IMG/VR virus record: IMGVR_UViG_3300038548_000174
Location: 1-34,631 of that record
Length of the DNA: 34,631 bases
Reading direction: 5' to 3' (one strand)
DNA from: a virus
Positions within the stretch are counted from its first letter, which is position 1, and each line of letters opens with the position of its first letter. Positions 22,452 through 33,456 of this stretch are shown piece by piece. The position numbers and the translations under genes are program-made. The notes beneath the pieces were generated by a model, which worked only from the letters and a program-made list of their open reading frames with translations, ran no database searches and was not told the DNA's origin.

Positions 22452-22712
22452 ATGTTTAAATCTAATGTGGCTGGATTTTATTCCCCAATATGGACTGATA
22501 AAGAATCAGGAAAGGGCAATAAGATAACCAGCCGAACTATTAAATTTGAAGCTGGTGAGAGGTTGAAGTTTTGCCCAAAGTGCCAAGATTGGCACCCAAG
22601 CGACACGGAATTCTTTTCACCGGCTAAAAATTTAAGACTTGGTTTGTCTTCCTGGTGCAAATGTTGTTATCGGGAATGGAAAAACGAGAAACGTTATTGG
22701 GAAAAATCATGA
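22452..22712 (+). CDS. Small zinc-finger protein
   Basis: 86 residues. Two Cys pairs with aromatic surroundings: FCPKCQDWHPSDTEFFSP and SSWCKCCYREWKNEKRYW, a pattern seen in short phage proteins related to HNH-type zinc folds ('C--C---KP---F------ C--C---'). No catalytic His-Asn-His set is present. Its stop overlaps the next start (ATGA). Probably nucleic-acid binding; function not established. Confidence 0.75.
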   Translation: MFKSNVAGFYSPIWTDKESGKGNKITSRTIKFEAGERLKFCPKCQDWHPSDTEFFSPAKNLRLGLSSWCKCCYREWKNEKRYWEKS

Positions 22713-23378: not shown

Positions 23379-23795
23379 ATGGGTAACCTAACAAAAAACA
23401 TAAGTAGCCACGAATTAGAATGTAATTGTGGTAAGTGCCAGGTAAGAATTCAGAATCACGAACCTGTTATTCAAGTGGTTCAAGATGTTTGTGATTACTT
23501 CGCTCAAGTTCACGGCGTTGATAAAGTGGTTTTAAATATCAGTAGCCCGGCGCGGTGTTATGAATACAATCGTTTACCAGCCGATGAAGGCGGCCCCGGT
23601 AGTAATGACGAAAGCCAACACCCGCGTTGCTGTGCTATGGACATTCAATTGTTCGTTAATGACGTCCAGATAGCGCCCCAATTGATTTACGCTTACCTTT
23701 GCGCCAAGTATCCAAACAAGTACGGCATTGGTTCTTACAAGAGCTTCACGCATGTTGACACTAGGGCTATTCGTGCGCGTTGGGGTGACCTATGA
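23379..23795 (+). CDS. M15-family peptidase endolysin
   Basis: 138 residues, a stand-alone peptidase M15A (D-Ala-D-Ala/L-Ala-D-Glu type) domain that cuts cell-wall peptide cross-links at lysis. Zinc ligands by pattern: His81 and Asp88 (ESQHPRCCAMDIQL) and His125 (FTHVDTR). The usual 'S-H--G-A-D' motif has Cys in place of Gly at residue 85, not expected to remove activity. SSPARCYEYN (about 55-64) is the typical substrate-side segment. There is no signal peptide, so export needs a holin; the next gene, overlapping by ATGA, encodes a membrane protein suited to that. Confidence 0.9.
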   Translation: MGNLTKNISSHELECNCGKCQVRIQNHEPVIQVVQDVCDYFAQVHGVDKVVLNISSPARCYEYNRLPADEGGPGSNDESQHPRCCAMDIQLFVNDVQIAPQLIYAYLCAKYPNKYGIGSYKSFTHVDTRAIRARWGDL

Positions 23796-24250
23796 GCTGG
23801 TACAATCCTTTAAGCTGGGGAGAAAAAGCAGCAGACAATGTATTAGATAAAGAAAACGGTCTAGCCACTCAGTTTGGCGGCTTTATTAATAACCTTCATT
23901 ATTCTGATGCTGAGAAGGCAGAAAACAATTTAACGGTTATCGACTTTGCGCTTAAACGATTAAAGGCATTGGAACCATTTAAAATAGTTCAACGAATTAT
24001 CGCCTTTGCAACATTGTTTCTTTGGGTATTTGTCGGGCTCAATGTGTGTGTTTCAATATGGGTTTACGCGATCACCAAAAAAATAACGGTTATTGATGGT
24101 GTTCAGGTTGTAACTGGTATTGATGCAAGAACTGACTTTATGAAATTTGCAATGAGTGATTATGTTTTTTGGCCGGTAATATGCGTTTTCACGTTATATT
24201 GTGGTGGTGGTGTTGCTCGGTATTTCAGGCGCGATAGTAAAGATGATTAA
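23792..24250 (+). CDS. Putative holin (GTA-holin/3TM-like membrane protein)
   Basis: 152 residues. N-terminal half is soluble (MSWYNPLSWGEKAADNVLDK, later LKRLKALEPFKIVQRI); two clear membrane spans follow: about 78-103 (IIAFATLFLWVFVGLNVCVS and onward) and about 128-145 (FWPVICVFTLYCGGGVA), with a short basic/acidic tail FRRDSKDD. Layout and sequence tone fit the 'holin of 3TMs' group found beside endolysins in phages and gene-transfer agents. Overlaps the endolysin gene by four bases. It is followed by a 224-base gap that holds a structured RNA candidate. Confidence 0.65.
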   Translation: MSWYNPLSWGEKAADNVLDKENGLATQFGGFINNLHYSDAEKAENNLTVIDFALKRLKALEPFKIVQRIIAFATLFLWVFVGLNVCVSIWVYAITKKITVIDGVQVVTGIDARTDFMKFAMSDYVFWPVICVFTLYCGGGVARYFRRDSKDD

Positions 24251-24291
24251 TTTTTCATAAATGTTATACTTGCTATCTAATTGAATATTAG

Positions 24292-24446
24292 CCTGTATAT
24301 ATCAGTGAGTTAGTTCTTGCGCAAGGTAAGTGAAATTTTCCTATTACGTGTTGCAACGCTGAACGGCGAAGGAAGCTTTAAGAATAGGACATAGTAGGAC
24401 GGTGCAAATCCGTTGGCCTTTTCACTAGCTCATTGTTATATGCAGG
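24292..24446 (+). ncRNA. Candidate structured RNA element between lysis genes
   Basis: The 224-base gap between the holin-like gene and the 33-aa gene folds into an ordered structure on paper. Closing stem: 24292-24313 pairs with 24425-24446 (22 positions, one T-T mismatch, four G-T). Inside: a small hairpin 24315-24326; a stem 24331-24335/24420-24424; a 7-bp stem TCCTATT/AATAGGA (24339-24345 with 24383-24389) enclosing a hairpin CGCT-GAAC-GGCG (24357-24368); and a hairpin with loop TGCAAAT (24398-24402/24410-24414). Purine tracts CGAAGGAAG and ACATAGTAGGA are single-stranded, as in riboswitch or ribozyme cores. It ends 28 bases before an ATG. Class unknown. Confidence 0.6.
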
Positions 24447-24474
24447 TTAACCAACAACAAATTAAGGAAGTTAC

Positions 24475-24576
24475 ATGCCCAGCAAAACGAAAGGTACTAA
24501 CACCGGCGTAATGACACCAGCCGAGAAAAACGCAGGTTTCGGATCAACTCCGAACCAGAGCCCAGGCCGTAACTAA
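24475..24576 (+). CDS. Tiny hydrophilic protein (33 aa)
   Basis: 33 residues starting MPSKTKGTNTGVMTPAEKNA and ending STPNQSPGRN, rich in Gly, Asn, Pro, Thr and Lys. Good AAGGAAG seven bases upstream; the stop overlaps the next gene (TAATG). It lies directly downstream of the structured RNA, so it is the first reading frame that RNA could control in cis. It looks like other very small basic 'tail' proteins of phage lysis regions. No known family. Confidence 0.7.
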   Translation: MPSKTKGTNTGVMTPAEKNAGFGSTPNQSPGRN

Positions 24577-25088
24577 TGTTAATGTTTTACGGGTTAGCAT
24601 TTGCAGCTATGATAATTATCTCGCTGCTTTTGTTTAAAGCCAAAGGCACTATCTCTGCTTTATGCGGAATAGTGCTTTTAAGCTACCTTTCCTTTTTTTG
24701 CCTCTACTACACCCCATACAAAGACGAATTTTACACTTCAATGGATTCAGTAAGAATCGGCTTTGTCATGATCTCGATACTATTTTGCGGAATTAAATCA
24801 GATAAGCCTGTTGTTTATCTAGTTTATGCAGCAACTCTTTTAGTAAACTTAGTGATTAATATGTGCTGGCTATTCGTTAGTGGCTTTTATATTTACGCCG
24901 ACAGTTTTTATATAGTGATCGCAGCAATTGAGTTGATTATTTTTGGCATTGGAACGGACAGAACTCTAAAAATAAAATCAAGGAAGCGCAATGTCTCTTT
25001 TCATCTTGATAATATTGGTAGCATTAATAACTACTGGTGTAGGATTGTCAGTGGTGATGATACTGTTTCAAAAGGTGCAGAAAAATGA
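24576..25088 (+). CDS. Multi-span membrane protein of the lysis region
   Basis: 170 residues with about five hydrophobic segments: MLMFYGLAFAAMIIISLLLF, a second with ALCGIVLLSYLSFFCLYY, then VRIGFVMISILFCGI, VVYLVYAATLLVNLVINMCW, and FYIVIAAIELIIFGIGT; the last 35 residues are soluble. It could be a holin, pinholin-like or antiholin protein, or an unrelated membrane protein. Coupled on both sides (TAATG upstream, ATGA downstream). Its C-terminal ~33 codons overlap a second frame (24991-25119) that also encodes a membrane protein, limiting both sequences there. Confidence 0.72.
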   Translation: MLMFYGLAFAAMIIISLLLFKAKGTISALCGIVLLSYLSFFCLYYTPYKDEFYTSMDSVRIGFVMISILFCGIKSDKPVVYLVYAATLLVNLVINMCWLFVSGFYIYADSFYIVIAAIELIIFGIGTDRTLKIKSRKRNVSFHLDNIGSINNYWCRIVSGDDTVSKGAEK

Positions 25089-25119
25089 GCGAATTAGAGC
25101 AGAGGATAAGCGAGATTAG
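24991..25119 (+). CDS. Overlapping small single-span membrane protein (42 aa)
   Basis: 42 residues in a different frame across the junction of the 170-aa and 127-aa genes. AAGGAAGC lies just before the ATG. A membrane span of about 24 residues (LFILIILVALITTGVGLSVV and following) is followed by a charged tail (QKVQKNERIRAEDKRD). Span plus charged tail resembles small holins or a nested spanin-type gene, but there is no lipobox cysteine. The frame is kept open through the crowded overlap and has a good ribosome site, which is why I list it. Confidence 0.58.
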   Translation: MSLFILIILVALITTGVGLSVVMILFQKVQKNERIRAEDKRD

Positions 25120-25468
25120 CCAAAAGGTTAGCGGCATTGATCAGCGACTCGACCGGCACGAAGGCAAGGTTGAAAAAATACTTGGTGAAATGTCCGAATC
25201 ATTACAGAAAATAACCGAGGTAATGATCAAGCAAGAAGTGCAGGAAGAAGCGTCAAAGCTTGACCGTGAAGAAATTAACCAATTAAAAGATAAGTATCAC
25301 GAACTCGATAAGAAAGCTGATCTCGCCATTCAAAGCGAAGAAAGCATTAAGGACACAGCCAAGGAAATTAAAACAACCTTGAAGGGCGCGTTAAAGTGGG
25401 GCTTTGGATTATTCGGCTCATTAATGATATTGTTAGTTGCTGCCGCGATAAGAGCCGCATTAACATGA
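25085..25468 (+). CDS. Coiled-coil protein with C-terminal membrane anchor (XhlA-like layout)
   Basis: 127 residues. Residues 1 to about 95 are heptad-like coiled coil (ELEQRISEISQKVSGIDQRL; KYHELDKKADLAIQ), then LKWGFGLFGSLMILLVAAAI forms a single membrane span with a short end. This is the layout of hemolysin XhlA/small holin-partner proteins that sit beside phage lysins. Start overlaps the preceding stop (ATGA), and its stop overlaps the next tiny gene. A spanin or holin accessory role is inferred from layout and place only. Confidence 0.72.
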   Translation: MSELEQRISEISQKVSGIDQRLDRHEGKVEKILGEMSESLQKITEVMIKQEVQEEASKLDREEINQLKDKYHELDKKADLAIQSEESIKDTAKEIKTTLKGALKWGFGLFGSLMILLVAAAIRAALT

Positions 25469-31543: not shown

Positions 31544-32395
31544 ATGAAATTTATGAATCAGGCTCGTTTATTCGGAACATATCAAGAAGAAGCTGGACCG
31601 GATGGTAGTGCTCCCCCTGCTGGCGGTGATACCCCTCCGGATGGTGGTGACGCGTCGACTGTTGCTGATATGGCTAACGGTGATACGCCTCCTGCTGCCG
31701 ATACCCCACCTGCTGCCGGTGACGCCCCCGAATGGTTGCTAGGTAAATATCACACTGAAGGTAAAAGCGTTGAAGAAGCCACAACCGAACAAGCCAAGGC
31801 ATACAATGAATTGTCAGGCAAGTTCGGCGCATTTACTGGTGCTCCTGAAGAATATGCGATCGCGCTTAGTGAAGAATTAACCGAAGCTGGCGTTACCATG
31901 GACAAAGACGATCCAATGGTTGAAGCTGCTATGAAGTTTGCCAAAGACTCGAACATGAGCCAGGAAGGCTTAAACGGCATGTTGAACTTATACGCTATGC
32001 AGATGGCCGCAGAGCAGCAAGCCGACACCGAATACAAAGCCGAGCAAATGAAAGCTTTAGGCCCACAGGCTGAGTCTCGTATTCAAAACATTCAGCAATG
32101 GGCAGGTAAGAACCTTGATCCTGAAACAGTTGCTAGTTTAGAAGGTATGGCAACATCTGTTGAATCGGTTAAGGCTATCGAACGTTTAATCTCAATGACT
32201 CGAGGCGCTGCTGTTGATGTTGATAATACGGTCCCTGCTGCCGGTGCTAGTGCTGAAGATGTCGAGGCCATGCAATTTGAAAAGGACGATAACGGCAATC
32301 GCCGCATTCAAACGGATCCAGCATTTAAAGCTCGTTATCAGAAGTTGCGTAATGAAGTTTATGGCACTCACGAACATAAAGTGATGGTAGGTTAA
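31544..32395 (+). CDS. Scaffolding protein
   Basis: 283 residues. Pro/Gly/Asp-rich low-complexity N-terminal part (about 15-65: repeats of TPPAADTPPAAGDAP type), then a helical acidic body (GAFTGAPEEYAIALSEEL; LNLYAMQMAAEQQADTEYKA) and a helical C-terminus ending YGTHEHKVMVG. The 'GAP--Y-' segment followed by a long helix is typical of podovirus scaffolds directly before the capsid gene. Scaffolds guide prohead assembly and leave. AAGG lies eight bases before the ATG. A terminator follows. Confidence 0.85.
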   Translation: MKFMNQARLFGTYQEEAGPDGSAPPAGGDTPPDGGDASTVADMANGDTPPAADTPPAAGDAPEWLLGKYHTEGKSVEEATTEQAKAYNELSGKFGAFTGAPEEYAIALSEELTEAGVTMDKDDPMVEAAMKFAKDSNMSQEGLNGMLNLYAMQMAAEQQADTEYKAEQMKALGPQAESRIQNIQQWAGKNLDPETVASLEGMATSVESVKAIERLISMTRGAAVDVDNTVPAAGASAEDVEAMQFEKDDNGNRRIQTDPAFKARYQKLRNEVYGTHEHKVMVG

Positions 32396-32405
32396 ACCAA
32401 TCATG

Positions 32406-32430
32406 AGGCCACTCTATTTAGTGGCCTTTG
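32406..32430 (+). terminator. Intrinsic terminator between scaffold and capsid genes
   Basis: Perfect 8-bp stem AGGCCACT/AGTGGCCT (32406-32413 with 32420-32427), loop CTATTT, then TTTGATTTT. Partial termination here, with a promoter just behind it, would let capsid expression differ from scaffold. Confidence 0.8.
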
Positions 32431-32455
32431 ATTTTAATCACTTATGTAGTATTAT
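32428..32455 (+). promoter_or_regulatory. Possible capsid promoter
   Basis: -35-like TTGATT (32428-32433), 16-bp spacer, -10-like TATTAT (32450-32455), directly after the terminator. Transcription would start near 32462, giving a ~130-base leader. Moderate match; a host sigma70 reading is assumed. Confidence 0.45.
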
Positions 32456-32551
32456 TAACTTAAGTCTACAGATACCTTCCTCAGAAGCCTGAATACGGAC
32501 TAATTAAATGTAATAAAATTACTTTAGTTAGGCGGCCCCATTCAGGACACA

Positions 32552-32586
32552 CCCCTTACTAAAACAAACCAAACTTTAATAAGGGG
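32552..32586 (+). promoter_or_regulatory. Hairpin enclosing the capsid gene ribosome binding site
   Basis: CCCCTTA (32552-32558) can pair with TAAGGGG (32580-32586), which is the Shine-Dalgarno of the capsid gene (ATG at 32593). The 21-base loop is nearly all A and C. An upstream GGCCCC (32534-32539) could compete. The rest of the 197-base gap (32396-32592) shows no open reading frame. Confidence 0.5.
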
Positions 32587-32592
32587 CATATA

Positions 32593-33456
32593 ATGTCTAA
32601 ATTTCTCACCGAAGCTGCTGTCACGGAATTTGACAGCGAAGTAAAGCACGAATATCAAGGTATGCGCACGTTACGTGAAACTGTAAGTATTCGTACTGGT
32701 GTTATTGGTAAATCTTATGAATTTACTCGCATGGGTAAAGGACTAGCTAACCAGAAAGCTAGCCAAGCCGATGTTACTCCTATGGACGTCGACCATAGCA
32801 GACAGCCTGTTATTATGCAGAACTGGAATGCGCCGGAATATACCGATATCTTCGATCAGGCAGAAGTTAACTTTGATGAAAAGGCAGAGCTTGCCGTAAC
32901 CATTGCTAAAGCGATCGGTCGTCGTGAAGATCAGCTTGTTATTGATGCGTTGGCCGCCGTTACCTTTGCCGCTACTAACGATGAAGATCCCGACACTGGG
33001 CGAGTATTCGATATCTCAGCTACTCGTAACTTTGATTTGGATTCAATCCGTAGTGCTAAAGGCCACTTGGATGATATTGAAGCGGATGATGATGAACGTC
33101 ATATCGTTTTGCGGGCTCAAGCACTTCAAAAGTTACTTGAAGATCCAGAAGTAACAAGTTCAGACTTCAATACCGTGAAGGCGCTGGTTAATGGTGATCT
33201 TGATACCTACATGGGTTTCAAGTTCCATAAAATCGGCACACGTAAAGAGGGCGGTTTGCCTGGTGTTGCTGCTGACCGTACAGCATTTGCTTATCAAAAG
33301 GCAGCTATCGGCTTGGCAATCGGTATAGATATGAAAACAACTATCGATTGGATTGCTCAGAAAACCTCATGGTTAGCTAACGGCATGTTTAAAGCCGGTG
33401 CGATTGCTCGCGAACCTCAAGGTATCGTCAAGATTCAATATGACGAAGGTGTTTAA
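32593..33456 (+). CDS. Major capsid protein
   Basis: 287 residues. MSKFLTEAAVTEFDSEVKHE, then FTRMGKGLANQKASQADVTP and DIFDQAEVNFDEKAELAVTI, AKAIGRREDQLVIDALAA are features of HK97-fold capsid proteins in podoviruses of this group; the 'R-E---- DALA' helix is the spine helix region. The C-terminal part (FHKIGTRKEGGLPGV; WIAQKTSWLANGMFKAGA) is the typical P-domain/A-domain end. Own terminator-promoter leader and strong AAGGGG ribosome site indicate high expression. Confidence 0.92.
   Translation: MSKFLTEAAVTEFDSEVKHEYQGMRTLRETVSIRTGVIGKSYEFTRMGKGLANQKASQADVTPMDVDHSRQPVIMQNWNAPEYTDIFDQAEVNFDEKAELAVTIAKAIGRREDQLVIDALAAVTFAATNDEDPDTGRVFDISATRNFDLDSIRSAKGHLDDIEADDDERHIVLRAQALQKLLEDPEVTSSDFNTVKALVNGDLDTYMGFKFHKIGTRKEGGLPGVAADRTAFAYQKAAIGLAIGIDMKTTIDWIAQKTSWLANGMFKAGAIAREPQGIVKIQYDEGV

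Follow-up and report, generated by a model that had tools for sequence, protein, structure and literature searches.

A structured RNA of about 160 nt in phage genomes, best explained as a family with two known members

Genomic Context of the Element

The window, that is, the whole 34,631-nt stretch of viral DNA that was analysed, carries a 163-base element at positions 24288-24450, located in the gap between the gene of a 152-aa membrane protein (23792-24250) and a 33-aa gene (24475-24576). A near-perfect inverted repeat in this gap brackets a core of about 109 nt. The following features were identified:

24262..24270, + strand: extended -10 promoter-like TGTTATACT, directly upstream of the RNA (sequence match)
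24288..24314, + strand: 5' strand of the closing stem P1 (pairing; the inner positions 24303-24314 covary with Vibrio phage 1.185.O)
24313..24326, + strand: P2 hairpin, conserved GTTCTTGCGCAAG with palindromic CTTGCGCAAG and loop GCGC
24338..24374, + strand: P3 arm (tentative), UUCCU/AGGAA with inner hairpin GUGU-UGCA-ACGC; conserved GTTGCAA..CTGAACG
24382..24423, + strand: P4 arm (tentative), lower stem GAA.AGG/CCU.UUC, CATAGTA (24390-24396) and hairpin GACGG-TGCAAAT-CCGTT (24398-24414)
24424..24450, + strand: 3' strand of P1 (pairing; covariation with Vibrio phage 1.185.O)
24464..24470, + strand: ribosome-binding-site-like AAGGAAG of the 33-aa gene (24475-24576), from sequence

The element showed no evident protein-coding content. 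The only + strand open reading frame of at least 30 aa overlapping it was a 32-aa TTG frame that crosses its 3' end and is not kept in the homologue, and a coding explanation was rejected. About 18 nt upstream of the RNA lies TGTTATACT, the sole match to TGnTATAMT in the window; about three matches were expected by chance, and the match is weak on its own. A similar sequence, AAATG-TA-ACTTGC, was found at the equivalent place in contig L003, a relative that lacks the RNA, and TGTTATAAT is the promoter-like counterpart in L035. We infer that the TGTTATACT site may have promoter activity. Literature searches returned no description of the RNA at 24288-24450.

A Homologue in Vibrio Phage 1.185.O

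A homologue was identified in Vibrio phage 1.185.O (MG592551.1), in a gap that carries no annotation, where it was first seen as a weak blastn match with an E value of 10. With the window sequence as the sole query, nhmmer gave an E value of 3.3e-4, with scaling to both strands of the whole phage collection. The alignment score between the window element and that of 1.185.O was 93.5, compared with 32-42 for unrelated loci. The core blocks GTTCTTGCGCAAG, GTTGCAA..CTGAACG, AAGAAT, CATAGTA and CGGTGCAAATCC were identical in the homologue, the AAGAAT block with a shift of one position in the MAFFT alignment. The element is present as a single copy in each genome.

The two phages are distant, and their clearly related proteins are structural, with about 20-35% identity. 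The neighbouring genes also differ. In the window, the element is located in the lysis region; in 1.185.O, it lies upstream of a Dam-type DNA adenine methyltransferase gene with replication genes nearby, and the lysis genes are elsewhere. Elsewhere in MG592551.1 (28101-28318), "CRISPR spacer" ncRNA features are annotated within the protein gene NVP1185O_27; these are more likely a repeat in the coding sequence.

The Closing Stem and Its Covariation

The preliminary description of this locus had proposed a closing stem of 22 positions (24292-24313 with 24425-24446). This stem was confirmed as a subset of a longer one, P1, which consists of 26 base pairs and one U·U mismatch (24302/24436). The outer part pairs 24288-24301 with 24437-24450 (14 bp) and the inner part pairs 24303-24314 with 24424-24435 (12 bp). 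All 12 inner pairs were formed in both sequences despite eight substitutions, three in one arm and five in the other. Three of the changes were two-sided and two were one-sided (G-U), with p of about 3e-4 under random substitution, and this covariation was lost in slid control alignments. Beyond the inner 12 pairs, P1 continued in unrelated sequence, with 14 bp in the window and 7 bp in 1.185.O. For P1, RNAalifold on the window element and the homologue gave a z-score of -5.45, and none of the 200 column shuffles was as good.

The covariation in homologues that had been set as a check was therefore found in the closing stem, in one homologue (three two-sided and two one-sided changes). Two-sided compensatory changes of this kind, which mark a structured RNA conserved by base pairing, were found for P1, with statistics that are thin because the comparison has two members only.

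Folding Energy and Strand

The folding energy of the element was compared with shuffled controls, as had also been suggested beforehand. On the + strand, 24292-24446 had a minimum free energy (MFE) of -49.7 kcal/mol (z -3.53, 0/200 shuffles as good), better than the shuffles, while the - strand gave z -1.10 with 27/200 shuffles as good. By a composition regression of MFE across the window, the element ranked about fifth among 164-nt stretches on both strands, so energy alone is modest evidence. The strongest composition-corrected fold of the window, at 22468-22631, lies inside the gene of an 86-aa Cys-rich protein (22452-22712), and strong folds were also predicted on both strands at 32388-32641, in the gap between the presumed head genes 31544-32395 and 32593-33456.

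The homologue gave z -4.75 for the whole element. Its reverse strand folds well too (z -5.45), so the strand is likely rather than proven. The + strand is favoured by two G-U pairs in the window P1, by the strand z-scores of the window and by the gene orientation in both phages, and the RNA is likely on the + strand.

The 109 nt enclosed by P1 in the window gave z +1.28 when folded alone, no better than shuffles, and the homologue core gave z +0.17. The fold energy thus comes from the closing stem, and the nested helices are not established by it.

These two properties, an MFE rank of only about fifth in the window and a core no better than shuffles, would suit an inverted repeat that arose by chance in a spacer and folds well by accident. 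Against this stands an independent homologue with a covarying stem and a conserved core, which already refutes an accident unless the match itself is due to chance (E 3e-4), and we regard this explanation as very improbable. The stretch 24288-24450 very probably specifies a folded RNA. The best explanation of the sequence comparison would be a structured phage RNA of about 160 nt that forms a family with two known members, in the window and in Vibrio phage 1.185.O.

A Tentative Fold for the Core

At least four nested inner helices had been proposed from the window sequence, and this claim is weakly supported: the core-only z-score (+1.28) does not support it, and another layout fits both sequences. 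The inner helices of the window MFE structure, UCCUAUU/AAUAGGA and CGCU/GGCG, are not those shared with the homologue. The alternative layout fitting the window and the homologue comprises a hairpin with a GCGC loop, a middle arm with a UGCA loop and a third arm. In P2, 13 nt were identical in the homologue and the stem pairing was kept through a U-G to U-A change, giving UCUU-GCGC-AAGR in both sequences. In the middle arm of the common fold, the UGCA loop is followed by UGAACG. The sequence block of this arm is conserved, and the pairing of P3a showed two two-sided changes in a structure-guided alignment; this pairing is tentative.

For P4, the homologue shows an equivalent layout: both the lower stem and the upper hairpin carry two-sided changes, and CATAGTA and CGGTGCAAATCC are identical. 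The lower stem is composed of GAA/UUC and a covarying AGG/CCU versus CAGU/GCUG helix, with CAUAGUA as a bulge. The hairpin GACGG-TGCAAAT-CCGTT, which had been likened to a T-arm, does occur, at 24398-24414, and the homologue has the same 7-nt loop. The structure modelled for the P4 arm is likewise tentative. The consensus of the two cores gave z -1.44, which is not significant, with the unbiased MAFFT alignment and z -3.56 with a hand alignment, the latter being biased since that alignment was fitted to the fold. A fold common to both cores is plausible as a tentative model. In the homologue, a direct repeat TGCAAACCTGAACGCTGT/TGCAAATCCTGACGCTGT was observed, a hint that the hairpins of P3 and P4 may have arisen by duplication; the repeat is weak in the window.

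Presence and Absence in Related Phages

The RNA was absent at the same site from close relatives of both phages. Contig L003, whose flanks are about 93% identical to the window, carries the same endolysin and 33-aa gene with a different holin and no RNA. The Vibrio phages 1.021.A and PS25B.1, with flanks about 90% identical to those of 1.185.O, carry 16 nt at the position of the RNA, and both keep the preceding hairpin and the following methyltransferase. In 1.185.O, the RNA replaced a leader bearing the AAGG of the methyltransferase gene. These close relatives without the RNA indicate that it was gained or lost as a unit.

The preliminary description had placed the RNA in the lysis region and suggested that it might time lysis. 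This link was not supported: the homologue lies away from lysis genes, and the RNA was absent from relatives of the window holin and from L003 with its same endolysin and 33-aa gene. A holin-linked origin was ruled out by the same holin relatives. Judging from these genomes, the RNA occurs sporadically as a unit and does not belong to the lysis module.

When 26 related phage records were scanned with a covariance model, the only match was a weak one in phage 2E1. The first model, R1, was built on a poor automatic structure and was replaced by R2. The 2E1 match proved to be a terminator hairpin and no relative of the RNA.

Several side observations were made in these relatives. In Vibrio phage 2E1 (L050, 2374-3091), a 718-nt gap 3' of an M15 endolysin contains a hairpin region that resembles an sRNA and has a strong terminator at its end. 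A hairpin CCCTGTGTAACAGCAGGG-TCTTT upstream of the methyltransferase is conserved among three Vibrio phages, whether or not they carry the RNA (L002:3973-3990; L040/L041 ~1520-1545). A comparison of L003:5414-6315 with window 23792-24474 revealed a lysis cassette swap, in which near-identical endolysin and 33-aa genes flank different holins, and L003 has an extra gene that is YopX-like by appearance.

The arrangement in both phages could also be read as a cis-acting 5' leader element, riboswitch-like, protein-binding or affecting stability, that controls the downstream gene. The RNA shares its strand with the next gene, lies within the 5' leader of that gene and ends 22-24 nt before the start codon in both phages; the promoter-like site directly precedes it in the window, and the leader that it replaced in 1.185.O held the AAGG of the methyltransferase gene. 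However, the downstream genes are unrelated (a 33-aa protein in the window and a Dam-type DNA adenine methyltransferase in 1.185.O), and close relatives have the same genes without the RNA. An alternative fold that pairs with the ribosome-binding site was not seen, and the predicted accessibility of AAGGAAG was 0.54 with the RNA and 0.55 without it. The stem is not followed by a terminator, and no riboswitch family matched. Control in cis is a possible account that we place second.

The presence and absence in two lineages, at sites bounded by an inverted repeat, would also be expected of a small selfish mobile element in RNA or single-stranded DNA form, inserting in intergenic gaps, with the long inverted repeats as its ends and, as here, no evident protein-coding content. 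However, the two elements differ in their repeat ends and share a conserved centre, a pattern opposite to that of transposon or attC-type ends, and no target-site duplication was found, the 1.185.O leader being replaced rather than split. The single copy per genome and the lack of a reverse transcriptase in either phage also argue against such an element, which we consider unlikely.

Comparison with Known RNA Families

Rfam 15 gave no match to the window at the gathering score, and up to E ≤ 10 both the element and the homologue had only chance-level matches. The Rfam search proposed for this locus thus linked neither sequence to a known family. The cobalamin riboswitch, RF00174, had no match in the window at E ≤ 0.001, a threshold at which 8/14 control genomes matched, and was absent up to E 10. 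No tRNA or tmRNA was called by ARAGORN or RF00005, with controls positive in 14/14. No terminator-like site (a short GC-rich hairpin with a T run) was found in 23700-25200, in agreement with the earlier view that the structure is unlike an intrinsic terminator. Of the classes named for it at that time (riboswitch, ribozyme or phage ncRNA), a phage ncRNA is the most probable, and the suggested resemblance to the cobalamin riboswitch was not borne out by RF00174.

No reverse transcriptase (RVT_1), the gene expected near a retron ncRNA, was found in either phage, while the controls matched. The conserved blocks, searched as exact and as gapped DNA patterns in IMG/VR and in GTDB genome contigs, gave only chance matches, mostly coding, besides one group containing L008; these scans depended on exact conserved blocks, so that diverged members would escape them. 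The element had no blastn match in plasmids or E. coli genomes, and the homologue had only chance matches in plasmids.

The group L008, L009, L011, L013 and L016 was rejected as homologous: it has CATAGTA and GGTGCAAATCC in common with the element, its topology differs, and both R1 and R2 scored no match. These records carry a cloverleaf-like element of about 71 nt (e.g., L009:7560-7640, minus strand) with a 7-bp stem GCCGTAG/CTACGGC, an anticodon-like loop ATACCAT and a T-loop TGCAAAT. It lies upstream of terminase genes, in the 96 nt that separate a ParB-like gene from a gene of Mom-like appearance. ARAGORN did not call it, and RF00005, searched in L008 and L011, did not match it; it is possibly a degenerate or decoy tRNA.

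Partial likenesses to known RNAs were also considered. The element resembles the cobalamin riboswitch in its GGTGCAAATCC hairpin with a T-loop-like loop, although RF00174 did not match while the controls did. It resembles a tRNA in having a closing stem with three arms (tentative) and a last hairpin with a 7-nt T-arm-like loop, but the closing stem is far too long and the UGCAAAU loop has G where tRNAs have U55. AbiF/RCd22-type antitoxin RNAs (PMC12373285) are likewise structured, prophage-encoded ncRNAs with hairpin motifs; however, no Abi_2/AbiF protein was found in either phage (in a search with a weak control), and Rfam gave no match. A search for a ToxN toxin, the partner of type III antitoxin RNAs, matched none of its controls and is uninformative. 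GOLLD and ROOL (PMC12286853) are similar as structured bacterial or phage-associated RNAs of unclear role, but are much larger, and no Rfam family matched the window RNA.

Proposed Function

In P1 the sequence is variable while the pairing is kept, and the enclosed core of about 110 nt is conserved. RNAs excised from a longer transcript are laid out in this way, with a conserved core inside a long stem whose sequence is free to vary; rRNA precursors, for example, are cut by RNase III at a double-stranded stem. On this ground, an RNA excised from its transcript and acting in trans is favoured over control in cis and over a selfish element. We therefore propose, with a little less than even confidence, that the RNA moves horizontally, is excised at the long stem and acts in trans. 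Transcription would start from the promoter-like site directly upstream, and the P1 duplex would be cleaved by a double-strand-specific, RNase III-like enzyme. The freed core could then act in trans via its conserved loops (the GCGC palindrome, UGCA, CAUAGUA and UGCAAAU), which may bind a factor of the host or of a competitor; an action in trans on host functions, among the suggestions of the preliminary description, is thus possible. A role in anti-defence or host takeover would fit the patchy, portable distribution. More doubtful is the specific proposal of a previously undescribed class of portable, RNA-only phage accessory element. Its core of about 110 nt would be excised from the leader of any gene next to which it inserts and, acting in trans, would counter a system of the host or of a rival phage that lies outside the targets of known RNA inhibitors.

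Small phage-borne ncRNAs that act in trans on host defence have been described, namely pseudo-ToxI of phage PhiTE (PMC3475682) and the RNA anti-CRISPRs, or Racrs (PMC10651486). Those RNAs are short repeat units copying a known host RNA (the ToxI repeat and the CRISPR repeat, respectively), whereas the predicted window RNA is about 160 nt long with a 26-bp closing stem, and no copied host RNA was found.

The RNA-free sister phages 1.021.A and PS25B.1 and the RNA-bearing 1.185.O, all Vibrio phages, offer a natural comparison that is directly testable in the laboratory. To our knowledge, few phage RNAs have been described besides tRNAs and repeat mimics, and through some of them new mechanisms by which bacterial defences are blocked have come to light.
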